From: a bacterium
GTDB taxonomy: Bacteria; UBP18; UBA7526
Assembly: GCA_030615855.1 (NCBI GenBank)
Contig: JAUWYL010000026.1
Coordinates: 1 to 14,399 of the forward strand
Reading direction: 5' to 3'
DNA: 14,399 nucleotides
This document shows positions 1 to 14,147 of this stretch, piece by piece. The position numbers were made by a program, and so were the translations under genes. Position 1 is the first letter of the stretch, and every line of letters starts with the position of its first letter. The notes beneath the pieces are model-generated. The model was given only the letters and a program-made list of their open reading frames with translations, was not told where the DNA came from and ran no database searches.

Positions 1-1224
1 AGAGATCACTGGCTCGGGAAAGTGCATGGTCTCTAACAAAATGGGCGCATCTCTATCGCATAATGTATCCCCGGTCTTGGTCTCCTTCAATCCTACGCAG
101 GCAGCGATATCACCAGCATAGACCTCCTCCCTATCCCGACGTTTATTGGCGTGCATCTGCAGGATCCTTCCCATCCTTTCCCTCTTATCCCGGGAGGCAT
201 TATAGATATAGGAACCAGCCTTCACACTCCCGGAATATACCCGGAAAAAGGTGAGATTCCCCACATAGGGATCGCTGGCGATCTTGAAGGCCAGGGCGGC
301 GAAAGACTCGGAGTCAGAGGCTTTCCTCTTCTCCTTACTTCTACCTATGGGATTAATACCCTCCACTGCCCGGATATCGATGGGTGAAGGAAGGTAGTCC
401 ACTATGGCATCCAAGAGGGGCTGGATCCCCTTATTCTTGATGGCGGCACCACATAGCACGGGGATGAGAGTAGCAGATAGGGTCCCTTTTCTAATCCCTC
501 TCTTCAGCAGATCCTCCTCTATCTCTTCTCCTTTTAGGTATTTCTCCATCAACTCCTCATCTGCCTCGCTTACTCCCTCAATCAGTCTCTCCCTATATTC
601 TTTTGCTTCTTCCCTAAGTTCAAGTGGGATCTTTCCTATCCTGGGCTTTATCCCTAGGTCCTCTTTTTCCCAGATAATGGCCCTCATCCTGACCAGATCG
701 ATCACTCCCTTAAAGTTCTCCTCTTCTCCTATAGGGATCTGGATGGGAAAAGCATTAGCATTGAGTTTCTCTCTCATCTCCTCTACCGCTTTTAGGAAGC
801 GAGCGCCCGTGCGATCCATCTTATTTATGAATGCCAGGCAGGGAATGCCATATCTCCTCGCCTGATGCCAGACGGTCTCTGATTGGGGTTCCACTCCCCC
901 CACGGCACAGAAGATGGCCATGGCCCCATCCAGGACTCTTAGGGATCTCTCAACTTCAACCGTGAAGTCCACGTGGCCCGGGGTATCAATGATGTTAATC
1001 CTATGGTCTTGCCAGTAGCAGGTAGTAGCCGCAGAGGTAATGGTTATTCCCCTCTCCTTCTCCTGAGCCATCCAGTCCATGATGGCTGTCCCCTCATCCA
1101 CCTCACCCAATCTGTGGCTTATCCCGGTATAGTAAAGGATGTGTTCTGTGGTGGTCGTCTTTCCGGCATCGATATGGGCCATGATCCCGATATTTCTTAT
1201 TCTTTCTAAAGGTATCTCTCTCAT
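1..1224 (-). CDS. fusA: Elongation factor G, N-terminal part (truncated by window edge)
   Basis: EF-G is the ribosomal translocase: a GTPase that moves tRNA-mRNA after peptide transfer and helps recycle ribosomes with RRF. About 408 residues are present, beginning at the ATG at 1224. The G-domain motifs are intact: P-loop AHIDAGKT at residues 16-23, DTPGH at 80-84 and NKMD at 134-137. Domain II follows (GDTLCD region), and the window ends just after the PEPVIS motif that opens domain III. Domains III-V, about 280 residues, lie beyond position 1. It is the last visible gene of the rpsL-rpsG-fusA group, 157 bp after rpsG. A hairpin-like TCACTT/AAGTGA sequence lies just before the start, and the Shine-Dalgarno match (GTGAGAAG) is only moderate. 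The identification as bacterial EF-G is certain. Possible paralogues elsewhere in the genome cannot be judged. Confidence 0.98.
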
Positions 1225-1381
1225 TCTTCTCACTTTGCTCGTCGAAGTGATCGGTGAGCGGTGATCGGTAGTAGTTGGTTTACGGTGTACGGTTTACGGT
1301 TTACGGTGAAAAACGGTAAACGGTCCCGAATGAAGTGAGGGACGGGTAGACCGTTAACCTTATGTAATACGGTTCACTATC
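1225..1381. repeat. rpsG-fusA spacer filled with degenerate TTTACGGT / GATCGGT words
   Basis: On the plus strand, 1252-1300 carries imperfect near-tandem words (gtgatcggt, gtttacggt, gtgtacggt, gtttacggt). Next come aaacggtaaacggtc and then the inverted word gaccgttaacc. A sequence tcccgaatgaagtgaggga (about 1324-1342) resembles, in the opposite orientation, the CTCGCTACGCTCGG micro-repeat found before other genes of the operon. No credible ORF or promoter was found. The spacing and word content look like a decayed repeat array, not a conserved leader. Confidence 0.6.
1309..1359 (-). terminator. Possible terminator or attenuator hairpin after rpsG
   Basis: In the transcript direction GGTTAACGGTC (1359-1349) can pair with GACCGTTTACC (1325-1315), 10 of 11 positions, around a loop of about 23 nt. 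It is followed after one base by five T residues (1313-1309). This resembles an intrinsic terminator. However, the loop is long, the T run short, and both arms are made of the spacer's repeated word, so the resemblance may be accidental. Because fusA follows on the same strand, partial attenuation is more plausible than full termination. Confidence 0.3.
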
Positions 1382-1852
1382 TTACCAGCGATAGTGGGCG
1401 AAGGCCTTATTGGCCTCTGCCATCCTGTGGGTATCCTCTTTTTTCTTTACTGCTGACCCAGTCTTCTTTGAGGCATCGAAAAGCTCCCCGGCCAATCTCT
1501 CAGCCATGGTATGCTCTCTTCTCTTCCTGGCAAAGTTTATTATCCAGCGCCGGGCCAAGGTCTCTCCCCTATCTGGTCTGACATCTACTGGGACCTGGTA
1601 GGTGGCTCCTCCCACCCTACGAGGCTTTACCTCCAAAAGGGGTCTTACATTCTCAATGGCCCTTTTAAAGAGGCTCAAGGGGTCTTGACCGCTCTTCTTT
1701 CCCACAATCTCCAAAGCCTCATAGAGTATGGATCTGGCCAGGGATTTCTTCCCCTTCAGCATGAGGCAGTTAACAAACTTCGCCACTAAGAGGTTATTAT
1801 ACTTGGGATCGGGCAGTATCTCCCTCTTAAAGACTCTCTTTCTTCTGGGCAT
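1382..1852 (-). CDS. rpsG: 30S ribosomal protein S7
   Basis: S7 is a primary 16S rRNA-binding protein. It nucleates assembly of the 30S head and lies near the E-site and P-site tRNAs. The 156-residue product has the usual length and ends in the conserved AHYRW tail. Family sequence is visible throughout: the basic N-terminus with PDPKY near residues 15-18, KFVN near 25-28, the central [12 protein letters not shown] segment near 78-88, and RRWI near 101. The frame stays open to a GTG at 1861, but the ATG at 1852 is chosen because a GGAG Shine-Dalgarno (1864-1861) lies 8 nt before it and the GTG overlaps that site. It lies between rpsL (96 bp upstream) and fusA. In E. coli S7 autoregulates the str operon from the rpsL-rpsG spacer. 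Here that spacer is repeat-like, and no S7-binding element could be recognised. Confidence 0.98.
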
Positions 1853-1948
1853 CTCACTCACTCCGTTCGTACGCAGATTACCGCAGATTATCAGCGGTAA
1901 TCAGCGTCCAATACGCCCACGCAGTAGGTAATACAAAGAAATCTGCGT
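1853..1948. repeat. rpsL-rpsG spacer: palindromic CGCAGATTACCGCAGAT repeat
   Basis: Positions 1871-1907 form an imperfect palindrome: a left arm acgcagattaccgcagatt faces a right arm that is its reverse complement at about 16 of 19 positions. A second inverted pair, acgcag (1919-1924) and ctgcgt (1943-1948), abuts the rpsL stop codon. The word family recurs between tRNA-Trp and rpmG (13921-13980). No gene or promoter is seen here. In E. coli the equivalent spacer is the S7 translational operator; this one looks repeat-derived. Confidence 0.65.
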
Positions 1949-2320
1949 TTATTTGGGTCTTTTCGCTCCATATTTGGAGCGACTCTTTCTCCTGTCCTCC
2001 ACTCCCATAGTATCCAGGGTTCCCCTTATGATGTGATACCTCACCCCAGGTAAATCCTTCACCCTTCCTCCCCTGATGAGGACGATGGAGTGTTCCTGTA
2101 AGTTATGGCCTATTCCGGGGATGTAGGCGGTGACCTCCATACCATTGGAGAGGCGAACCCTGGCCACTTTCCTTAGGGCACTGTTGGGTTTCTTAGGAGT
2201 AGAGGTATAGACCTTGGTACATACCCCTCTACGCTGAGGAGAGCCACCCAGGGCAGGAGTGGTGACCTTCCTCACCTGCCTCTTCCTTCCCATCCTTAAT
2301 AGTTGACCTATGGTAGGCAT
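1949..2320 (-). CDS. rpsL: 30S ribosomal protein S12
   Basis: S12 lies at the decoding centre of the 30S subunit and contributes to codon-anticodon checking. The 123-residue product has standard length. It shows [12 protein letters not shown] near residues 41-52 and [13 protein letters not shown] near 84-96, with lysines at the two classical streptomycin-resistance positions, so the streptomycin-sensitive type is predicted. The aspartate of VKDLPG is the residue that RimO methylthiolates in many bacteria. The frame is open upstream to 2386, but that extension reads through repeat sequence. The ATG at 2320 gives the universal MPTIGQL start and has GAGG (2330-2327) 6 nt before it. That Shine-Dalgarno is part of a micro-repeat also found before secE and rpmG. 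The gene follows the fused polymerase gene after a 284-bp repeat-filled spacer and precedes rpsG. Confidence 0.98.
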
Positions 2321-2324
2321 TTCA

Positions 2325-2343
2325 TACCTCGCTACGCTCGGAG
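2325..2343 (-). promoter_or_regulatory. SD-bearing micro-repeat before rpsL
   Basis: On the coding strand the sequence CTCCGAGCGTAGCGAGGTA ends 4 nt before the rpsL ATG, so its GAGG serves as the Shine-Dalgarno at 6-nt spacing. Near-identical copies occur before secE (13719-13735), rpmG (14127-14147) and, shortened, the small ORF before rplA (12509-12523). Confidence 0.6.
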
Positions 2344-2498
2344 TAACCAGTAACCAGTTTACAGTTTTGAAAACTACAAATTCCAATACACAAATTACAA
2401 ATCACAAACAATAACCAATGACCGAAATTACAATGACCAAAGCAACACGCTTTTGTTTGGAATTTGGGAAATTGGGATTTGGGATTTGTTTGTATTGA

Positions 2499-2534
2499 TT
2501 CGCCTTTGGCGAAGAAATCTTCGGCGTAGCCGAA
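2499..2534. repeat. Pair of 15-bp mini-hairpins
   Basis: TTCGCCTTTGGCGAA (2499-2513) and TTCGGCGTAGCCGAA (2520-2534) are both perfect 6-bp stems with 3-nt loops, 6 nt apart. A similar unit, AGCGACAAAGTCGCT, lies in the tuf-rpmG spacer (14158-14172), and a 17-bp one lies before the polymerase gene (10458-10474). No T run follows, so they are not typical terminators. Confidence 0.65.
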
Positions 2535-2604
2535 TATTTGGGTGCTTGTAATTTGGAATTTATTTATTCTGGTTACTGTTCGCTGGTTACTGTAAACCTC
2601 TATT

Positions 2605-5600
2605 CTACTGTTCACTTTTTACCAGTTCTAACTCTTGGTAAACAGAGAGACCGGTTCCGGCTGGTATGAGGTGGCCCATAATCACGTTCTCCTTCAGGCC
2701 CCTTAGCTCATCCCGCTTCCCACTTGCTCCGGCCTCAGTCAAGACCCTGGTCGTCTCCTGGAAACTGGCCGCGGAGACGAAGGACTCTGTTGTCAGAGAG
2801 GCCTTGGTTATTCCCAAGAGTATGGGTTGGGCAGTGGCTGGTTTCTTCTTCTTCTTTTTTAATACCTTCTCGTTCTCCTCCCGGAATGCGGTCCGATCTA
2901 CCGCCTCACCTGCCAAGAAGCGGGTATCACCAGGATCTACGATCCTCACTTTTTTGAGCATCTGGCGGACGATGATCTCCACGTGCTTATCATTTATCTC
3001 CACACCCTGAAGTCGATAGACCTCCTGAATCTCGTTCACCAGGTAGTTCTGGAGCTCCTTATCTCCTTTGACTCTCAATATATCATGGGGGATGACGGGA
3101 CCGGACATCAGTCTATCTCCAGCTGTCACTCGATCCCCTTCATAGATCCTGAGATGCTTCCCCTGGGGAATGAAGTACTCCCGACTCTCTGTCTCTCCCT
3201 CAACGATGATCCTTCTCATCCCCCTAATTGACCCTCCGAATTTGACTACCCCATCGATCTCTGTGATGATTGCCGGCTCCTTCGGCTTCCGAGCCTCGAA
3301 GAGCTCGGCCACCCGAGGAAGCCCACCAGTGATATCCTTGGTCTTCATTATCTCTCTGGGGAACTTAGCCAAAACCTCTCCGGGAGCGACCCAATCGCCA
3401 GGGCTCACCGCAATGTGGGCCCCGGTCAGTACAGTATATCTATCAACGACCTTGCCCATCCTATCCTTAATGATGATCTCTGGATGGAGCTGGGTATGGC
3501 GATGATCGATGATCACCCTTCCTATATGTCCCGTAGACCTATCGCGCTCCTGCCTCATGGTCACTCCCTTGATGACGTCTGAGAAGCTCACCTCGCCCTC
3601 CACCTCTGCTAATAGGGGGCGGGTATAGGGATCCCACTCCACCAGGAGTTGACCTTTCTTCACCCTCTTCCCCTCTTTCTCTTTCAATAGGGCACCATAA
3701 AAGACCCTCTGGGTCTGAATCTCTTCCCCCTCCTCATCCAAAAGGCTTATTCTTCCATTGCGGTTTAAGACCACAGTCTCTTTATTCTTATTCACTACGT
3801 TCCTCAGGTTGTAGTACTTTACTCTTCCCTCTTCCTTGGCCAGGATCTTCGATTGGGCGATTACTCTGGATGCCGTTCCTCCGATGTGGAAGGTCCTCAT
3901 GGTAAGCTGGGTTCCTGGTTCACCAATGGATTGGGCAGCGATGACCCCCACCGCCTCTCCCAAGTCAACCAACCTTCCCGTGGATAGGTTCCTTCCATAG
4001 CACTTCTGGCAGACCCCATACCTCGCCTCACAGGTTAGGACACTTCTCACCTTGACCTCATCTATGCCTGCCTCCTCAATGATTTTTGCCTTCTCCTCCG
4101 TGATCTCCTCACTCCTTCTGCAGATAGAATCGCCCAGTCTGGGGATGGTGATATCCTCCTGGGCTACCCTCCCAATGATCCTATCCGATAGCGTGACTAT
4201 GATCTCCTCTCCCTCCAGTATGGGACCTAAGGTAATCCCGTTGAGCGTTCCACAATCCTCTTCGTTGACAATCACCTCCTGGGCAACATCCACCAATCTC
4301 CTGGTGAGATACCCAGAGTCCGCGGTCTTCAGGGCGGTATCGGCCAATCCCTTCCGCGCTCCATGGGCGGATATGAAGTACTCTAAGACGGTCAGTCCCT
4401 CCCGGAAGTTGGCCGTGATGGGGGATTCTATGATTTCACCACTTGGTTTGGCCATCAGTCCCCTCATGCCCGCCAGCTGCCTCACCTGCTCCTTGGATCC
4501 CCGGGCTCCAGAGTCAGCCATCATCAGGATGGGGTTGAACTTCGTCCTTCCCTTGGGTGGAACCCTCAATCCCTCAATCATCCAGTCCGCCACCTTGTCT
4601 GTGGTATGGGTCCAGATGTCGATGGCCTTGTTATATCTCTCACCATCGGTGATGATCCCATCCTTATACTCTCCCTCCACCTTCCATACCGCCCTCTTGG
4701 CCCTTTCCAAAAGCTCTTTCTTTTCCTTGGGCACCTTCATATCATCCAGACCAATAGAGATCCCGGCCTGGGTGGTAAATTGGAAGCCCAATTCCTTTAG
4801 GTTATCCAAGAGGAGGATAGTTCTATAGCGTCCTAATCTTTGGAAGCAGGAAAGGATGAGGTTGACGAGGTCCTTCTTTACTATTTCCTTATTTATAAAT
4901 CGGAGCTCCTCTGGTAGAATCTGGTTGAAAATTACCCTTCCGCAGGTGGTAGCTACAATCTCCTCACCGATCTTTACCTTTATTTTGGCATGAAGGAAGA
5001 GTGCTCCATGTTCATGGGCGATGAGGACTTCCTCGCAACTTGAAAATCTCTTACCCTCTCCCTTCTCTCCAGAAAGCTCCTTTGTAAGATAGCATAGGCC
5101 CAGAACCATATCCTGAGTGGGGGTAACTAAAGGCTTTCCATGGGCCGTGGACAGAATATTATTTGGAGCGAGCATCAAGAGCCGGGCCTCGAGCTGGGCC
5201 TCACTAGATAATGGGACATGGACCGCCATCTGGTCCCCATCGAAGTCAGCATTAAAGGCTACACAGACCAGGGGATGAATTCTGATGGCGTCTCCTTCCA
5301 CAAGCAGCGGTTCGAAGGCCTGAATCCCTTGGCGGTGCAGAGTGGGGGCACGATTGAGGAGTATGGGATGCTCTGAGATTATCTCCTCCAATATGTCCCA
5401 GACCTCACTGGTCTCCTGGGCCAGGAGCTTCTTGGCTCCCTTAATGGAGGTGACATAACTCTTCTCCTTTAATCTTTTGATGATGAAGGGCTCGAAGAGC
5501 TCCAGAGCCATCTTCTTGGGCAATCCGCACTGGTGGAGCTTGAGCTCTGGTCCGATGACGATGACCGAGCGCCCCGAATAGTCGACCCTCTTACCCAATA

Positions 5601-8600
5601 GGTTCTGCCTGAACCTCCCCTGCTTCCCCCTAAGCATATCGGATAGAGACTTTAAGGGTCTTCCCCCAGCACCCTTAACCACCCTTCCCCTCCTTCCATT
5701 ATCAAATAAAGCATCCATTGCTTCCTGGAGCATCCTCTTCTCATTCCTCACGATGACCTCTGGGGCGCGAAGCTCCATGAGCTTCTTTAACCTATTATTC
5801 CTATTAATTACCCGGCGATAGAGGTCGTTCAGGTCGCTTGTGGCGAACCTTCCCCCGTCCAAAGGAACTAAGGGTCTTAGGTCAGGCGGGATGACGGGAA
5901 GGACTTCTAGGATCATCCACTCCGGCCTATTCCCAGAGGCCAGGAAGGACTCCACGATCTTCAATCTCTTACTTAGCTTCATCCTCTTCTGGGCAGAGGT
6001 AGTCCTTCTCATGTTATTCTTGATCTCCTTGGCAAGAGCAGCCAAATCCACCTCCTCCAATAGTTTCCTGATGGCCTCTCCCCCTATCCCGGCCTTAAAG
6101 GAGGTACCATACCTCTCTCTATAATCCTGGTACTCTTCCTCAGTCAAGAGCCTCTTCTTGGCCAGCTTGGTCATGCCGGGATCGGTGATGATGTACTCCT
6201 CAAAGTAGAGGACTTTCTCTAACTGTCTCTGGGATAACCCGAGAAGAGCTCCCATTCTACTGGGTATCCCCTTGAAGTACCAGATGTGGGAAAGAGGAGT
6301 AGCCAACTCGATGTGGCCCATCCTAACCCGGCGCACAGAAGACTTGGTAACCTCTACCCCGCAGCGATCACATACTATCCCCTCATGCTTCATCCTTTTA
6401 TACTTTCCACAGTAGCACTCATAGTCCTTGGTGGGACCGAAAATCCTTTCGCAGAATAGACCATCCCTCTCCGATCTGAAGGTACGATAATTTATGGTCT
6501 CTGGCTTCTTGACCTCTCCCTGGCTCCAGAATTGGATGACCTCTGGCGAGGCGATCTTTACTCTTATGGCTTCATACCCACCTGCCCGTCCCTGTCCGTC
6601 CGACAGGCGGGCGGCAGACGGAGGCGAGGTAGGGGTTGCTGGCGTCCTCTTCTTCCTCTCAAGTTCGACATTCAAGGTCAGTCCCATCAACTCCTTGACC
6701 AGGACATTGAAGGACTCGGGAAGGGTAGGGGGAAGGGTGTCTTCTCCCTTGACAATGGCCTCGTATATCTTCGTTCTCCCAACGATGTCATCGCTCTTTA
6801 CGGTGAGCATCTCCTGCAGGGTATAAGCGGCCCCATAGGCCTCCAGGGCCCAGACCTCCATCTCCCCAAACCTCTGTCCTCCAAACTGGGCCTTCCCTCC
6901 CAGGGGTTGCTGGGTAACCAGGGAGTAAGGACCTATTGCCCGGGCATGGATCTTATCCGCCACTAGGTGGGCGAGCTTCATCATATAGATATAGCCCACC
7001 GTGACCTCTTGATCGAAGGGCTCACCCGTCCTCCCATCATATAATATGGTCTTCCCGTTCTCTGGAAGGCCGGCCTTCTTCAAGAGCTTTTTGATCTCCC
7101 CCTCTCTTGCTCCATCGAAGACTGGAGAGATGAACTTCAGCCCCAAGGCTTGAGCAGCCCAGCCCAGGTGGGTCTCCAGTATCTGGCCCACATTCATCCT
7201 TGAGGGAACCCCAAGGGGGTTTAAGAGTATCTCCACTGGGGTGCCATCTGCCAGATAGGGCATATCCTCCTCAGGCAGGATCTTGGCGATCACTCCTTTA
7301 TTCCCATGCCTTCCTGCGATCTTATCTCCCACAGAGAGTTTCCTCTTCTTGGCTACGAAGACCTTGACCATCTTCAAGATCCCTGAGGGGAGTTCATCTC
7401 CCTTCTTGGCCCTCTCCAGGTCCCGGTCTCTTCTTCTCTTGATGGCCTCTATCTTCTCCTTCAGGATCTCTTCTATCCTCTCAATCTCCTCTTTTCTCTT
7501 CAGTCTCTTAGTCTCTCTCTTGACCCTCTCAGAGAGTCTTTTTATCTCTCTCTCCGCCTCTCTCTTTATCCCCTCTAACTCCACAGATTGGGCCTCTCTC
7601 TCCTTCTTAGTCTTGGGCCTCTTCTTCTTAGAGAAGATCTTGACATCGACCACTATCCCCTCATCCCCAGGGGGGAAGCGAAGGGAGGCATCCCTTACTT
7701 CTGCTGCCTTCTCTCCAAATATGGCGCGCAGTAGCTTCTCCTCTGCAGAGAGCTCGGTCTCTCCTTTAGGGGTGACCTTACCGATCAAGATATCCCCTGG
7801 TTTGACAGCGGCCCCGATACGCACGATCCCCTCCTCATCCAGATTGACCAGGGCCTCCTCTGCTACGTTGGGGATGTCTTTAGTAATCTCCTCCTTCCCC
7901 AATTTAGTATCCCGGGCTAAGAGCTCATACTCCTCTATATGGATAGAGGTGAACTTATCATCCTTCACCACCCTTTCACTTATTAGGATAGCATCTTCAA
8001 AGTTATATCCCTCCCAGGGCATGAAGGCCACTAAGACATTTCTTCCCAAAGCGAGTTCCCCCTTGTCTACTGCCGGACCATCAGCAATGATCTCTCCCCT
8101 CTTCACTCTCTGGCCTCTCTTCACGATCGGCCTCTGATGGATGCAGGTATCCTGATTGGACCTGATGAACTTATCCAGGAGATAGGTATCATGGGTCTCG
8201 AGGCTGAAGGAAGGCTCCTCTATTCGGATGATGATCTTATCTGCGTCTACCTCTTCTACTACTCCCTCCCTTTTAGCCAAAACGACCGCCCCGGAGTCCT
8301 GGGCTACCTTCTCCTCTATCCCGGTTCTCACCAAAGGGGGCTCAGGAACCAGGAGGGGAACTGCCTGGCGCTGCATATTGGAACCCATAAGAGCCCGATT
8401 GGCATCATCGTGTTCCAGAAAAGGAACCAAGGCAGCCGAGACAGAGACCAACTGTTTAGGCGAGATGTCCATGTAATCGATCTCGCTTGGGGTAACCTTA
8501 GGGAAGTCACCCCTCCTCCTTGCCGAGACTCTTTCCTCCAAGAAACATCTCTTACTGTCGAGTCGGGCATTGGCCTGAGCGATAGTGTACTCGTCCTCCT

Positions 8601-10440
8601 TATCTGCAGAGAGGTACTCGATCCTCTCAGTCACCCTTCCCTTCTCTACCTTGCGATAGGGAGATTCAATGAGGCCGAACTCATTCACCTTGGCATAGGT
8701 GGAGAGGGAGTTGATGAGGCCGATGTTCGGGCCTTCTGGAGTCTCTACAGGACACATCCTGCCATAGTGAGTATGGTGGACATCCCGCACCTCAAAGCCT
8801 GCTCTCTCCCGAGATAATCCTCCCGGGCCTAAGGCAGAGAGTCTTCTCTTATGGGTGAGCTCTGCTAAGGGATTCGTCTGGTCCATGAACTGGGAAAGCT
8901 GACTCCTGCCAAAGAAATCCCTTATTAAAGCTACCAGGGGATTGGCGTTTATCAGGTTGTGGGGCATGGCGCTCTTTAGATCCATAAAGGACATCCTTTC
9001 CCTTATCCCCCGCTCTACCCGGAGGAGCCCAATCCTCACCTGGTTGCTCAAGAGCTCTCCCACGCTCCTGGCCCTCCTATTCCCCAGGTGATCGATATCA
9101 TCGATGGTTCCCTTTCCATACCTTAAATCAACCAGATATCTGACAGCCCCGATAATATCCTCTCTGGTCAGGGCTCTCTCGCTCATGGGAACATTCAGGC
9201 CCAGCTTCTTATTGAGTTTATACCTTCCCACCTTGGCTAGGTCATATCTTCTCTTATCGAAGAAGAGCCTCTCCAAAAGCCTCTTAGCCCCTTCTGCTGA
9301 GGGTGGTTCACCAGGACGAAGCCTTCTATAGACCTCTATCAAGGCCTCCCTCTGGGTAGTGGTGGAATCCTTCTCCAGGGTATTCCTGATGGCCAGGTTG
9401 GCCCTTACCTCATCAATGACCACGGTCCGCACCTTCTTTATCCCTGCTTTTGCCATTTTACTCAGGGAAGTAGGGGTGACCTCCTGGTTAGCTTCTAAGA
9501 TGACCTCTTTCGTCTTTTCATCTATCGCTTCTCTTGCCAAAATCTGGCCCAGGGCCTTGGGCAACTTGGCTAGGGGGGAAATGACCTCTATCTCCTTTAT
9601 CCCGGCCCCCTGGATCTTCTCCAAGAGAGGTGGGGTAACTTTCTCTCCAGCCGAGAGGATCTTCTCACCCGTCTGCCTATCCCTAACGGTTCTTATGGCC
9701 ACCTTTCCTAAGGCTCGAGAGAACCTGGGCCCTTTGACCTTCAGGATCTTGGGGGGTTCTTCTACCTTGATCTCTCTCGTGGGATAGAAGAAGGATAGTA
9801 TTTCTTCATTCCTCTGGTAGCCCAGGGCGCGCAAGAAGGCAGTGACTAAGAGCTTTCTCTTGCGATCTATCCGGGCATAGACCAGGTCATTGACATCGAG
9901 TTCAAACTCCAGCCAACCTCCTCTGTAGGGAATGATGCGGCAGGAATAGAGGTGTTTGCCATTGGGATGAACAGAAAAAGTATAGGCCACCCCTGGGGAA
10001 CGATGGAGTTGGCTCACTACCGCCCGCTGGGCGCCATTGATGATGAACGTCCCCTGAGGGGTCATGCGGGGTATCTCCCCAAGATAGACCTCCTCCTCCT
10101 TGATCTCCTTTATCTGCTTCTTCCCCGCCTTATCTTCTTCTCTTATCACTAGCCTCAGGATTACCTTAAGGGGCAGGGTATAGGTCAGGCCTCTATCTCG
10201 ACATTCCCTTATATTATACTTCAGCTCCCCCAACCTATAGCCTACAAATTCTAAAAAGCTAAGGCCCTGGGTATCATAAATGGGAAAGATTTCTCTAAAG
10301 ACGGCCTCCAGACCCTGAGGCTTGCGAGAAAGAGGACCCTTGCCTGGCTGCAAGAAATCCTCATAGGATTTCTTCTGGATCTCGATGAGGTTCGGTATTT
10401 CCAAGACCTCTGGGATCTTGGCAAAGCTTACCTTCTTCAT
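2605..10440 (-). CDS. rpoBC: Fused RNA polymerase beta-beta' subunit (RpoB-RpoC fusion)
   Basis: One 2611-residue frame encodes both large subunits of the DNA-directed RNA polymerase core. Residues 1-1265 are RpoB, ending in the [14 protein letters not shown] tail followed by ELERKKR. Residues 1266-1288 are a linker, and RpoC begins at about Y1289 ([12 protein letters not shown]). In RpoB the rifampicin pocket is wild type (D520, H530, S535, equal to E. coli 516, 526, 531). A Lys/Glu-rich insert, probably coiled coil, occupies about 935-1012, and GRHGNKG lies near 1043-1049. In RpoC, zinc site 1 is C1342, C1344, C1357, C1360; the Mg-binding NADFDGD has D1732, D1734, D1736; the trigger loop lies about 2024-2050; zinc site 2 is C2063, C2137, C2144, C2147. 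A run of six lysines (2528-2533) sits near the C-terminus. No separate rpoC start is seen: the first in-frame ATG is M1350, inside zinc site 1. The ATG start has GGGGG 10 nt upstream. Natural fusions are known in Helicobacter relatives and Wolbachia. Confidence 0.97.
6580..6630. repeat. In-frame GC-rich imperfect palindrome in the RpoB-RpoC linker
   Basis: The 51-nt stretch runs from ACCT (6580-6583) to AGGT (6627-6630). Its core is CCTGTC-cgtcc-GACAGG (6591-6607), and CTGCCCG (6582-6588) faces CGGGCGGCAG (6608-6617) imperfectly. It encodes about 17 linker residues rich in Ser, Ala, Gly, Pro and Arg, with no counterpart in either subunit. Its length is a multiple of three, so removing it would leave the frame intact. 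This recalls palindromic elements that insert in-frame into genes, as described in Rickettsia. No second copy is in this window, so mobility is inferred, not shown. Confidence 0.5.
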
Positions 10441-10599: not shown

Positions 10600-11130
10600 T
10601 TATTTAAGTTCTACCTTGGCTCCCACCTCTTCCAGTTTCTTCTTTACTTCTTCTGCTTCCTCCTTTGGGATCCCGGTCTTCACCGGCTTGGGAGCTCCGT
10701 CTACCAGGGCCTTAGCCTCCTTCAGGCCGAGGTCGGTCAGACTCCTCACCACCTTAATGACCTGTATCTTCTGAGGGCCTATCTCCTTCAAGATGACATC
10801 GAAGGTGGTCTTCTCCTCTGCCGGAGGTGCCCCGGGGGCTGCTCCGGGAACCGCCATGGCCACCGGCACTACAGCACTAACTCCAAACTTCTCCTCCAAT
10901 ACCTTGACAAGATCGGCAAGTTCTAAAACACTCAAGGATTCGATGCCTTTTATAATCTCTTCTGCTTTTTTGGAAAGCTCCACCGCGACCTCAGGTTTAG
11001 GCTCTTTCTCTGCCTTCGGAGCTTCTGGCTTTGTCTCTTTCTCTACTATCTCTTTTGCTTCCTCCTTCTTCTCTTCTTTGGGAGCTTCTTTAATTTCTGG
11101 TTCCTTCTTCCCCTCTTTCTTTTCTACCAT
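10600..11130 (-). CDS. rplL: 50S ribosomal protein L7/L12 with long charged N-terminal extension
   Basis: L7/L12 forms the ribosomal stalk that recruits and activates GTPase factors such as EF-Tu and EF-G. From the ATG at 11130 the product is 176 residues, about 50 longer than usual. Residues 1-49 are almost only Lys, Glu, Pro and Ala. The family begins at about residue 50 with the L10-binding dimer domain ([20 protein letters not shown]), then a short Ala/Pro/Gly hinge, then the factor-binding domain ([26 protein letters not shown], ending KVELK). A perfect AAGGAGGT (11146-11139) lies 8 nt before this ATG; the in-frame TTG at 11136 is only 2 nt from that site and is rejected. A GTG at V50 (10983) has GAGG 5 nt upstream (10992-10989). 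Starting there would give a normal 127-residue L12, so two forms are possible. The gene follows rplJ closely, as in most bacteria. Confidence 0.96.
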
Positions 11131-11138
11131 AATCAACT

Positions 11139-11146
11139 ACCTCCTT
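11139..11146 (-). promoter_or_regulatory. Perfect Shine-Dalgarno of rplL
   Basis: AAGGAGGT lies 8 nt before the ATG at 11130, just before the rplJ stop at 11150. Its strength fits the need for several L7/L12 copies per ribosome, and it supports translation of the full Lys/Glu extension. Confidence 0.85.
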
Positions 11147-11149
11147 CTT

Positions 11150-11677
11150 TTATCGCTCAATCCCCTTAAGAATGAGAATTAAATTTCTTATATTTCCTTT
11201 GAGAACATTTATCAGGCCCGGTATGGGTGATTTTATTATAGAAGCGACCTGGGAGAGAAGTCCCTCATAGGAAGGGAGAAGAGCGAGCTCTCTAATCCTT
11301 TCCCTATCGATAAGCCTCCCCTCAACTATCCCCACCTTAATCTTCAGATTCTCATGTTCCTTGCTAAAATCGGTCAATATTCTCACTCCCGCCAGAGGGT
11401 CTTCATAACCAAAGGCAATAGCAGTGGGCCCCCTCAGATAAGGAAGGAGCCCTTCTTCATATCTTTCCCCTTTGACTGCCAGGCGGGCCAAGGTATTCTT
11501 AATCACCTCATACTCAATCCCTTCACTCCTTAACTTCTTTCGCAGATCGCTCATCTCTTCCACATCCAGACCACAATAATCAGAGAGAACGATGCTTGAA
11601 GCAGAATGCATCCTCTCCTTTATCTTCTCGACCTTCTTCTCCTTGGCTATTCTCTGTGGTTTCTTCTCTTCTGCCAT
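11150..11677 (-). CDS. rplJ: 50S ribosomal protein L10
   Basis: L10 anchors the L7/L12 dimers to 23S rRNA at the base of the stalk and, with L12, normally represses its own mRNA. The 175-residue product is of usual length. Its N-terminal RNA-binding domain shows the family pattern: a basic helix, SDYCGLDVEEMSDLRKKLR near residues 33-51, then EVIKNTLARLA near 57-67. The C-terminal helix that binds L12 dimers ends in GNIRNLILILKGIER. The ATG shares its A with the rplA stop codon (TAATG), with an AAGGAAGG Shine-Dalgarno inside the end of rplA, so the two are probably translationally coupled. There is therefore no room for the separate structured L10 leader found upstream of rplJ in many bacteria. 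Any L10 autoregulatory site would have to lie within rplA or elsewhere. Confidence 0.97.
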   Translation of the reverse strand: MAEEKKPQRIAKEKKVEKIKERMHSASSIVLSDYCGLDVEEMSDLRKKLRSEGIEYEVIKNTLARLAVKGERYEEGLLPYLRGPTAIAFGYEDPLAGVRILTDFSKEHENLKIKVGIVEGRLIDRERIRELALLPSYEGLLSQVASIIKSPIPGLINVLKGNIRNLILILKGIER

Positions 11678-12390
11678 TAGAGGCCTTCCTTGGTTAGTCT
11701 TTTGATTAGATCCTGGGTATCTATTCTGATGCTCGGCCCCATGGTGGAAGATAAAGTGGCCTTCTTCAGGTACTGACCTTTGGCGGTGGCCGGTCGGGAC
11801 TTAACCACCGCCCTGAGAAGGGTGAGGAGATTCTCCGAAAGGTCTTCTTCCTTGAAAGACTTCTTACCGATGGAGAGATGCAAAATACTCTGGCTATCCA
11901 TCCTATACTCTATCCTGCCCGCCTTGGCCTCTTTCACCGCCTGAGCTATCTTTAGAGTGACGGTGCCCAATTTGGGATTGGGCATAAGACCTTTGGGTCC
12001 CAGAATCCTTCCCAGCCGAGCAATCTCCTTCATCATATCTGGAGTAGCGATGGCCACATCGAAATCAAGCCAGCCCTTATTGATTTTCTCTATCAATTCT
12101 GTGGTTCCCACGAAGTCCGCCCCTTCCCCCTTTGCTTCCTTCTCCTTCTCTCCCTTAGCAAAGACCAGGACCTTTATCTTCTTTCCTCGACCATAAGGAA
12201 GGACTACCGTCCCCCGAACCATCTGAGAGGAATCCTTGGGGTCCACCCCTAATCTGATATCAATATCGATCGATTCATCGAACTTAGCGGGGGCAACTTT
12301 CTTGATTAGGGTGAACGCTTCCTCTAGAGGATAAGTCTTCCCCTTCTCTATTTTTCCTAAGGTTTCTTTATATTTCTTCCCCCTCTTCAC
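11677..12390 (-). CDS. rplA: 50S ribosomal protein L1
   Basis: L1 binds 23S rRNA in the mobile L1 stalk, which guides deacylated tRNA out of the E site. In many bacteria it also represses the L11-L1 mRNA. The 237-residue product is of normal length and contains the signature LGRILGPKGLMPNPKLGTVT at about residues 126-145. The start is GTG at 12390 (MKRGKKY), preceded by GGGAGGGG. This start lies in the 3' arm of a 13-bp perfect inverted repeat and overlaps the TGA of a small upstream ORF (GTGA). A closed hairpin would hide the ribosome binding site, and translation of the small ORF would open it. Downstream it couples to rplJ by a TAATG overlap. Identity is certain; the regulation is inferred. 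Confidence 0.97.
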   Translation of the reverse strand: MKRGKKYKETLGKIEKGKTYPLEEAFTLIKKVAPAKFDESIDIDIRLGVDPKDSSQMVRGTVVLPYGRGKKIKVLVFAKGEKEKEAKGEGADFVGTTELIEKINKGWLDFDVAIATPDMMKEIARLGRILGPKGLMPNPKLGTVTLKIAQAVKEAKAGRIEYRMDSQSILHLSIGKKSFKEEDLSENLLTLLRAVVKSRPATAKGQYLKKATLSSTMGPSIRIDTQDLIKRLTKEGL

Positions 12391-12530: not shown

Positions 12531-12989
12531 CTATTCTTCTTCTTTCCTACTTTCCTGAATGATTTCGGTTACTACCTCAATGCCCATGGACCTGGCTGTT
12601 CCCTCCACAATCCTTACTGCCCGCTCCAAGTCTGGAGCATTCAGGTCGGGCATCTTTATTTTAGCGATCTCTCTTACCTGGGCCTTGGTTACCTTAGCGA
12701 TCTTCTCCTTGCCTGGGGTACCACTTGCCTTGGCCAATCCCGCGGCCTTCTTTAGTAAGATGCTCGCGGGTGGGGTCTTGGTGATGAAGGTGAAGGAGCG
12801 GTCCTTGTAGACCGTGATCACTACTGGGATGATCATCCCCTCCTCCTTCTTGGTTCGCTCATTGAAGGCCTTACAGAACTCCATGATATTCACCCCATGC
12901 TGGCCAAGAGCCGGGCCCACGGGAGGGGCAGGATTAGCTGCCCCGGCCGGGATCTGGAGTTTTATCTTGGCAGCTATCTCTTTGGCCAT
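12531..12989 (-). CDS. rplK: 50S ribosomal protein L11
   Basis: L11 binds the GTPase-associated centre of 23S rRNA, takes part in factor-dependent GTP hydrolysis and in RelA activation, and is the target region of thiostrepton. The 152-residue product is about 10 longer than common because of an acidic/basic tail (ESRKEEE). The N-terminal domain shows [20 protein letters not shown] near residues 10-29 with the prolines that contact thiostrepton, then [15 protein letters not shown]. The C-terminal RNA-binding domain includes [10 protein letters not shown] and [14 protein letters not shown]. Its ATG shares one base with the nusG TGA (TGATG), so it is translationally coupled to nusG. It is followed by a 140-bp spacer holding the small ORF and inverted repeat before rplA, where many bacteria have a shorter gap. 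Confidence 0.97.
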
Positions 12990-13522
12990 CAGATCCTCTC
13001 CACCTGCAAGAAATTCAATTCCACAGGTGTAGTACGTCCGAAGATGGTTACCTCCAGCTTAAGCGTTCCTCTTTCAGGATAGATCTCCTCAATAATGCCG
13101 ATGAAATTGGTGAAGGGGCCATCAACGATTCTGACGCTTTCCCCTTTCTCAAAGATGACCTTGAGCTTGGGCTTCTTGGCCACCCGCTTCATTTCAGATA
13201 GAATGTAATCTACCTCTCCCTGGGCTAAGGGGATGGGCTTTGTCCCGGCGCCCACAAACCCCATCACCCCGGGAGTATTCTTCACCGCATACCAGGTATC
13301 ATCCGTTAACTCCATCTCGATCAGGGTATAACCAGGAAAGAACTTCTTGGTTGAGATCTTCTTCTTGCCCTCCTTAATCTCGGATATCTGTTGGGTAGGA
13401 ACGAGGACCTGGGAGATCTTATTCTCTAGACCCATGCTCTGGAAACGATGCCTTATATTTTCACCCACCTTATTCTCATCGTAGCCACTATAGATGTGAA
13501 TGGCATACCATGCTTTAGCCAT
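12989..13522 (-). CDS. nusG: Transcription elongation/antitermination factor NusG
   Basis: NusG is the universal (Spt5-related) elongation factor. Its NGN domain binds the clamp of RNA polymerase, and its KOW domain contacts Rho or ribosomal protein S10, linking transcription to termination or translation. The 177-residue product is of normal length. The NGN domain occupies about 1-112 ([16 protein letters not shown] at 4-19, [10 protein letters not shown] at 61-70, PGVMGFVG at 84-91). The KOW domain occupies about 124-177 ([16 protein letters not shown] at 127-142). The ATG at 13522 follows the secE stop by 3 nt. The gene belongs to the conserved secE-nusG-rplK unit. Its partner polymerase in this organism is the fused beta-beta' protein encoded downstream. 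No unusual insertion is visible. Confidence 0.98.
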
Positions 13523-13525
13523 ATT

Positions 13526-13714
13526 CTACCTCACTAAAATCAACCTTAGAAGTCTTACTAACATCAGATCTACAACTCCAATAAAGAGGGCAATAACGAC
13601 TACAGTGACGACGACCACCCAGGTAGCACCGGAGACCTCCCTCCTGTTCGGCCAGGTCACCCTCTTCATTTCTAATCTCACTTCCTTTAAGAATCTCCCG
13701 ATCCTTCTGGGCAT
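13526..13714 (-). CDS. secE: Protein translocase subunit SecE
   Basis: SecE is the essential small membrane subunit that clamps the SecY channel. The 62-residue product is the short, single-spanning type found in most bacteria (the E. coli protein has three spans). Residues 1-30 are an amphipathic cytoplasmic helix with the conserved EMKRVTWPNRREV motif (about 15-27). Residues about 32-52 are a Val/Ile-rich transmembrane helix, followed by a basic tail. The ATG at 13714 has GAGG(T) about 6-7 nt upstream, within a micro-repeat copy. The stop is 3 nt from nusG, giving the near-universal secE-nusG pair. It follows tRNA-Trp. Confidence 0.96.
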   Translation of the reverse strand: MPRRIGRFLKEVRLEMKRVTWPNRREVSGATWVVVVTVVVIALFIGVVDLMLVRLLRLILVR

Positions 13715-13838
13715 TTTTTACCTCGCTACGCTCGGTTAGTTCGGAGTACGCTCGGCTTTGCCTCGCTTGAGTTCGGTGTTTAGTATATTTTCTCTCCGAA
13801 CTCCGAACTGTTAACTCCGAACTGAATTATCCGCATCT
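13715..13838. repeat. tRNA-Trp to secE spacer: GTTCGGAGT words and inverted CTCCGAACT array
   Basis: On the plus strand AGTTCGGAG (13738-13746) and GAGTTCGGTG (13769-13778) face three copies of CTCCGAACT (13794-13802, 13801-13809, 13815-13823), so the spacer can fold back on itself. A degenerate micro-repeat variant (acgctcggctttgcctcgctt, about 13748-13768) lies between. No ORF or clear promoter is seen. The tRNA-Trp 3' end is at 13839, so these words would form the RNA just after the tRNA. Confidence 0.6.
13719..13735 (-). promoter_or_regulatory. SD-bearing micro-repeat before secE
   Basis: Coding-strand CCGAGCGTAGCGAGGTA lies 4 nt before the secE ATG. It is identical over this length to the copy before rpsL and places its GAGG at a functional Shine-Dalgarno distance. 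Confidence 0.6.
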
Positions 13839-13916
13839 TGGCAGGCCAGGAGGGATTCGAACCCCCAACATCCGGTTTTGGAGACCGGCGCTCTAACCAA
13901 TTGGAGCTACTGGCCT
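13839..13916 (-). tRNA. trnW: tRNA-Trp (anticodon CCA)
   Basis: A full cloverleaf can be drawn. The acceptor stem AGGCCAG pairs with CTGGCCT over 7 bp. The D arm is GCTC/GAGC. The anticodon stem CCGGT/ACCGG encloses CTCCAAA, with anticodon CCA reading UGG. The variable loop is followed by a T arm GGGGG-TTCGAAT-CCCTC. The discriminator is G, the usual tryptophan identity base in bacteria, and the 3' CCA is encoded. It lies between rpmG and secE on the same strand, an arrangement seen in several bacterial groups, so it is probably cut from the tuf-rpmG-secE transcript. Confidence 0.97.
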
Positions 13917-13977: not shown

Positions 13978-14127
13978 TTACTTAATTTCCTTGTGGAGGG
14001 TGTGCTTTCTGCAGAACTTACAGAACTTCTTCAACTCCAATCTATCTGGATTCTTTTTCTTATTCTTAGTAAGGGTATAGTTTCGCCTCTTACAGACAGT
14101 ACAGGCTAAAGTGATGGTCTCCTGCAT
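13978..14127 (-). CDS. rpmG: 50S ribosomal protein L33
   Basis: L33 is a small protein near the E site of the 50S subunit. From the ATG at 14127 the product is 49 residues, normal for the family. It is the zinc-binding (C+) type, with CTVC near residues 9-12 and CKFC near 36-39. Between them lies the basic [20 protein letters not shown] core, with a KHTLHKEIK tail. The frame is open upstream to 14217, but that extension translates repeat sequence and is rejected. The Shine-Dalgarno is GGAG (14137-14134) at 6-nt spacing, inside a micro-repeat copy whose last bases touch the start codon. It follows tuf and precedes tRNA-Trp, a gene order conserved in many bacteria. Confidence 0.96.
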
Positions 14128-14147
14128 ACCTCGCTCCGCTCGGAGTA
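14127..14147 (-). promoter_or_regulatory. SD-bearing micro-repeat before rpmG
   Basis: Coding-strand CTCCGAGCGGAGCGAGGT runs directly into the rpmG ATG. Compared with the rpsL and secE copies it has G in place of T, creating GGAG at 6-nt spacing. That suits this start, where the usual GAGG would be only 1 nt away. Confidence 0.6.

Follow-up and report, generated by a model that had tools for sequence, protein, structure and literature searches.

The two largest subunits of bacterial RNA polymerase, beta and beta', are not always separate proteins. Joining the C-terminus of beta to the N-terminus of beta' can leave function intact, as the engineered enzyme of E. coli and the natural one of Helicobacter attest. 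In E. coli the large subunits were reportedly tethered by engineering, to go by the title of a 1997 report by Severinov et al.; that enzyme shares the site of joining with the protein described here but is a laboratory construct. Natural cases comprise Helicobacter and Wolinella, where beta and beta' are fused in one chain (PMC1557499; PMC9696931), and Wolbachia, which has a natural RpoB-RpoC fusion (PMC7483510). The Helicobacter fusion is dispensable for viability according to a 2025 paper (PMC12718164), which cautions against presuming that it has a strong adaptive role. Within the open-licence papers searched, we found no natural RpoB-RpoC fusion beyond these lineages; a fused chain was likewise absent among the 60 best PDB sequences, and a search of a plasmid collection found nothing.

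Here we describe an rpoB-rpoC fusion from an uncultured bacterial phylum, denoted phylum A. The stretch of DNA analysed, hereafter the window, is an entire contig of 14399 bp (C29, 1-14399) from a genome (G000) of 1.375 Mb in 45 contigs, estimated at 93.6% completeness. We are highly confident that its beta operon carries a true and fixed gene fusion, one that is probably made as a single chain. This is a known kind of fusion in a new lineage, and it is commoner in uncultured phyla than the literature we found suggests.

NCBIfam holds two curated RpoBC fusion families: NF007172, which we take to be the Helicobacter-type model PRK09603, and NF011417, presumably the Wolbachia-type model PRK14844. 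The window protein scores below both, with 3004 bits against a cut-off of 5372 for the former and 2834 bits against 4632 for the latter; a Helicobacter-type fusion from our census (G046), used as a positive control, passes NF007172 with 5736 bits. Like the Helicobacter and Wolinella proteins, the window protein unites beta and beta' in one chain, in the same order and at the same joining place, but it has 2611 aa where these have about 2890, and G046 lies far from it in the RpoB+RpoC tree. With the Wolbachia protein it shares the single beta-beta' chain; in our trees, which contain no Wolbachia sequence, it groups with candidate phyla and not with proteobacteria. An earlier note, made from the window's sequence, had suggested that the fusion did not look like either type, and family scores and the distance from the Helicobacter type agree with it. 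Judged by these comparisons, the window's fusion arose apart from both known ones, with the profile score only as the basis in the case of Wolbachia.

The fused gene and its operon

The window's rpoBC gene is one open frame (2605..10440, on the minus strand, as are all genes and gene segments of the window located below), which runs from ATG to stop over 2611 codons with zero internal stops and encodes a chain with a predicted mass of 294 kDa. Its RpoB (beta) moiety (residues 1-1261; 6658..10440) matches TIGR02013 over its full length (residues 3-1260, 1843 bits against a curated cut-off of 801), and its RpoC (beta') moiety (about residues 1289-2611; 2608..6576) does the same for TIGR02386 (residues 1292-2602, 1833.5 bits against 963.5). 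Between them lies a linker (about residues 1262-1288; 6577..6657) with neither an rpoB stop codon nor an in-frame ATG, GTG or TTG. Pfam places RpoB domains 1-7 at residues 17-1261 and RpoC domains 1-5 at residues 1291-2550. The catalytic NADFDGD motif (residues 1730-1736), both zinc sites (1342-1360 and 2063-2147), the rifampicin-pocket segments (513-525 and 529-542) and the trigger loop (2035-2048) are all intact. An uninterrupted 2611-codon frame with preserved catalytic, zinc-binding and drug-pocket residues is what the earlier note had proposed, and both points are borne out, by full-length domain matches and residue by residue respectively. Screening the entire genome with PF04997 also yields just one RpoC match, the fused gene.

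The gene lies in the order tuf (partial)-rpmG-tRNA-Trp-secE-nusG-rplK-rplA-rplJ-rplL-rpoBC-rpsL-rpsG-fusA (partial), where rpmG (an L33-like ORF), secE and tuf were identified by eye. Upstream of rpoBC are tRNA-Trp(CCA) (13839..13916), a secE-like ORF of 62 aa assigned from sequence and position (13526..13714), nusG (12989..13522), and the genes for ribosomal proteins L11 (rplK, 12531..12989), L1 (rplA, 11677..12390), L10 (rplJ, 11150..11677) and L7/L12 (rplL, 10600..11136). Downstream are rpsL (S12, 1949..2386), whose true start is probably internal to the ORF, rpsG (S7, 1382..1861) and the N-terminal 411 aa of fusA (EF-G, 1..1233), truncated by the contig end. The operon had been called a complete beta-str operon: the usual order holds, but the word complete does not, fusA and tuf being cut by the contig ends.

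Conservation of the junction in the window's phylum

Phylum A comprises six genomes in our collection, all carriers of the fusion being metagenome assemblies, and in three that are incomplete the junction is missing. Where it can be read, the genes are fused in three of three genomes (G000, G001 and G004). The fused frame has 2624 aa in G001, of the same genus, and 2622 aa in G004, of another genus of the same family, and is respectively 89% and 87% identical to the window protein over the full length. Both gene ends are present in G002 (residues 1-750 and 2425-2609, 97-98% identical), its contigs ending before the junction, and the incomplete genomes G003 and G005 gave no rpoBC match. Two of the six (G001 and G002) come from cold-seep sediments, the CSMAG series being a global cold-seep catalogue (PMC10491686).

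These relatives bear on the most damaging objection, namely that an assembly or sequencing error erased a stop codon or frameshift near 6640 in an organism that really has two separate subunits. The data are metagenome-assembled genomes rather than reads, and a GC-rich hairpin at the junction could be error-prone; nevertheless, independently assembled genomes share the fused frame, and the linkers of G000, G001 and G004 differ from one another by indels of whole codons. Either side of the junction, G000 and G001 differ mainly by third-position substitutions (12/5/61 and 14/5/56 at first, second and third codon positions). After the C-terminus of RpoB (VELE), moreover, no in-frame ATG, GTG or TTG occurs before residue 1349 in G000, 1350 in G001 and 1355 in G004, and in all three this first start codon past the linker falls within the first zinc-binding site, so that a separate, complete RpoC with an ordinary start codon is impossible. 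The conservation of the fusion, the whole-codon indels and the lack of an RpoC start together effectively exclude a missed stop or frameshift, and we give an error origin hardly any weight. The frame is, on this evidence, a genuine fusion, neither chance nor read error, and probably predates the split of the known genera of phylum A. Both the search of close relatives for split or fused genes proposed by the earlier note, which turned up the same fusion in two further species, and the scenario that it named as fatal have thereby come out in favour of the fusion.

The linker is variable and basic; about 26 residues long in the window protein, it ranges from 16 to 33 aa among relatives, changing by whole codons, and the distance from the ESFNVL motif of RpoB to the GEVKK motif of RpoC is 47-72 residues among fused proteins. 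Modelled with AlphaFold2, the junction has low confidence overall (mean pLDDT 60.8); residues 1263-1288, between two predicted strands, come out unstructured (pLDDT < 50). This fits, without proving it, a linker that is probably a flexible tether. A variable, basic and probably disordered segment might also be the place where the fused chain, once made, is cut to yield ordinary separate beta and beta' in the working enzyme. We consider such cleavage very unlikely: Pfam matches neither a protease nor an autocleaving domain in the linker or beside it, and the large subunits of the Helicobacter enzyme are reportedly tethered, as the title of a 1998 report by Zakharova et al. has it. We infer instead that the gene is translated as a single chain that stays uncleaved.

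Within the linker, a GC-rich segment able to form a hairpin (6586..6624) is translated in frame. It is common to G004, of the other genus, and absent from G001, of the same genus, a distribution that takes one loss or two gains. The RNA fold of this segment was not stronger than that of shuffled sequences (z 0.18). We also considered the linker as a dispersed repeat and dropped the idea: G000 and G004 each contain a single copy of the hairpin, and elsewhere only weak partial matches of 20-31 bp turn up.

Fusions in other lineages and the number of origins

Censuses of 60, 389 and 386 genomes across the domain (overlapping sets), with phylum-wide follow-ups, were used to look for further fusions. 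A gene was counted as fused only if its match spanned the junction without stops, each case being re-read from the DNA; the fused-gene counts are lower bounds among the matches listed. At least 21 fused loci were obtained, as against 92 unfused same-strand pairs examined. Every readable junction was fused in phylum B (6/6: G198, G315, G401, G403, G406 and G071), phylum C (2/2: G043 and G060) and phylum D (4/4: G207, G323, G407 and G080). Fusions were also present, among the matches listed, in lineages E (G113, G238 and G448) and F (G123 and G248), which are delimited by the tree alone and not by phylum assignment. With three further candidate phyla fused at every readable junction and two more lineages besides, the window's fusion is not isolated.

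The proteins of B, D and E/F resemble the window's in being fused RpoBC chains (2465-2691 aa where complete, as frame lengths) with a short variable linker, and they are its neighbours in the tree; those of B and D are about 55-62% identical to it where compared. Their linkers differ, however, and the fusion is possibly separate from the window's. Phylum C likewise has fused RpoBC proteins, of 2534-2540 aa, but occupies a separate position in the tree. Some candidates were discarded. G379 had appeared to be a close RpoB relative (1987 bits) through overlapping BLAST pieces counted twice, its aligned identity being 62%. Very long RpoC frames in G041, G044, G117 and G354 proved to contain large inserts or extensions instead of fusions: all are stand-alone RpoC frames, about 2000-2275 aa long, that carry large insertions (L036 of G041, 2871-8996; L035 of G044, 8396-15223; L053 of G117, 632-6715; L054 of G354, 369-6359). 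In G021, G024, G041, G055 and others, an insertion splits the RpoC N-terminal domain into two Pfam matches within one open frame.

In RpoB+RpoC trees, built with FastTree (112 taxa) and IQ-TREE, both the Helicobacter type and phylum C branch away from the other fusions, and a single clade of phylum C with A-F is rejected (p-AU 6e-7). A, B and D-F share one region of the tree, in which a group with support 98 holds B, D-F and eight unfused genomes (G029, G031, G269, G380, G368, G131, G216 and G241) and excludes A. Separate RpoB and RpoC trees, the check advised at the outset, both put A in this same position.

The shared region raises the question of whether A, B, D, E and F inherited the fusion from a common ancestor, the genes having later been split again in the unfused members. 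The mixture model leaves room for such an ancestor: under LG+C20 PMSF a single fused clade has a p-AU of 0.062, and B and D-F form a clade there. Against it stand the position of A outside the support-98 group with its eight unfused genomes and, under LG+G4, a p-AU of 0.023 for A, B and D-F forced into one clade; A with D-F as one clade gives 0.039, and A with B 0.005. We find a shared fused ancestor rather doubtful, though far from negligible. The topology favours the other reading, in which phylum A probably gained its fusion independently of B and D-F. Of the initial proposal of an independent fusion in another lineage, the other lineage is established, and independence from B and D-F is likely (p-AU 0.023 and 0.062 for a single fused clade).

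Among the sampled genomes, at least three origins are needed to account for the sequences, namely the Helicobacter type, phylum C and the window's neighbourhood, and about four are favoured. It is likely, in our judgement, that rpoB-rpoC fusion is recurrent and phylum-fixed in several uncultured phyla (A-F), that at least two gains, and probably three, took place besides those of Helicobacter and Wolbachia (in C apart from A/B/D-F), and that a split RNA polymerase is exceptional or absent there. Seen wherever the junction can be read in at least four candidate phyla, the fusion is no longer a curiosity but a recurrent path of evolution. It could serve as a rare-event marker to place uncultured phyla, and the fused phyla offer natural replicates for asking whether tethering alters assembly, stoichiometry or drug response. 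For annotators it matters that both existing fusion-family cut-offs are missed by the window's gene and by the others tested.

Probable route to fusion and local features of the operon

The fusion most likely arose when rpoB lost its stop codon and rpoC its start, the losses that set fused genes apart from ordinary neighbours, and the adjacent genes merged into one frame. The short, variable and probably flexible linker would bridge the C-terminus of beta and the N-terminus of beta', so that a single ribosome pass would yield both subunits as one chain, of about 294 kDa, and this chain, together with alpha and omega, would fold into a core enzyme of the normal form. Few mutations should suffice, since in unfused genomes the median gap from the rpoB stop to the start of the RpoC match is 87 bases and rpoB and rpoC already share a frame in 29 of 77 unfused pairs. 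This last proportion does not exceed one third (p = 0.47), and we set aside the idea that in-frame neighbours prime the fusion. A chain that stays in one piece would by logic fix beta and beta' at a 1:1 stoichiometry and save one assembly step; both are plausible consequences here.

Two further features of the window lie away from the junction. A short repeat, GGCATTT..TACCTCGCTACGCTCGG, adjoins genes at 2316-2341, 13710-13735 and 14118-14143, and is possibly a dispersed intergenic element; intergenic repeat content, to which the earlier note had appealed, carries no weight for judging the lineage. Set against L045, the window's rplJ-rplL region (about 10780-11400) is about 87-91% identical at the DNA level to that of the close relative G002, as against 94-100% in the flanks, and G001 displays the opposite trend, with 96% for L10 against about 89% for RpoBC. 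This pattern of identities suggests local recombination inside the operon.
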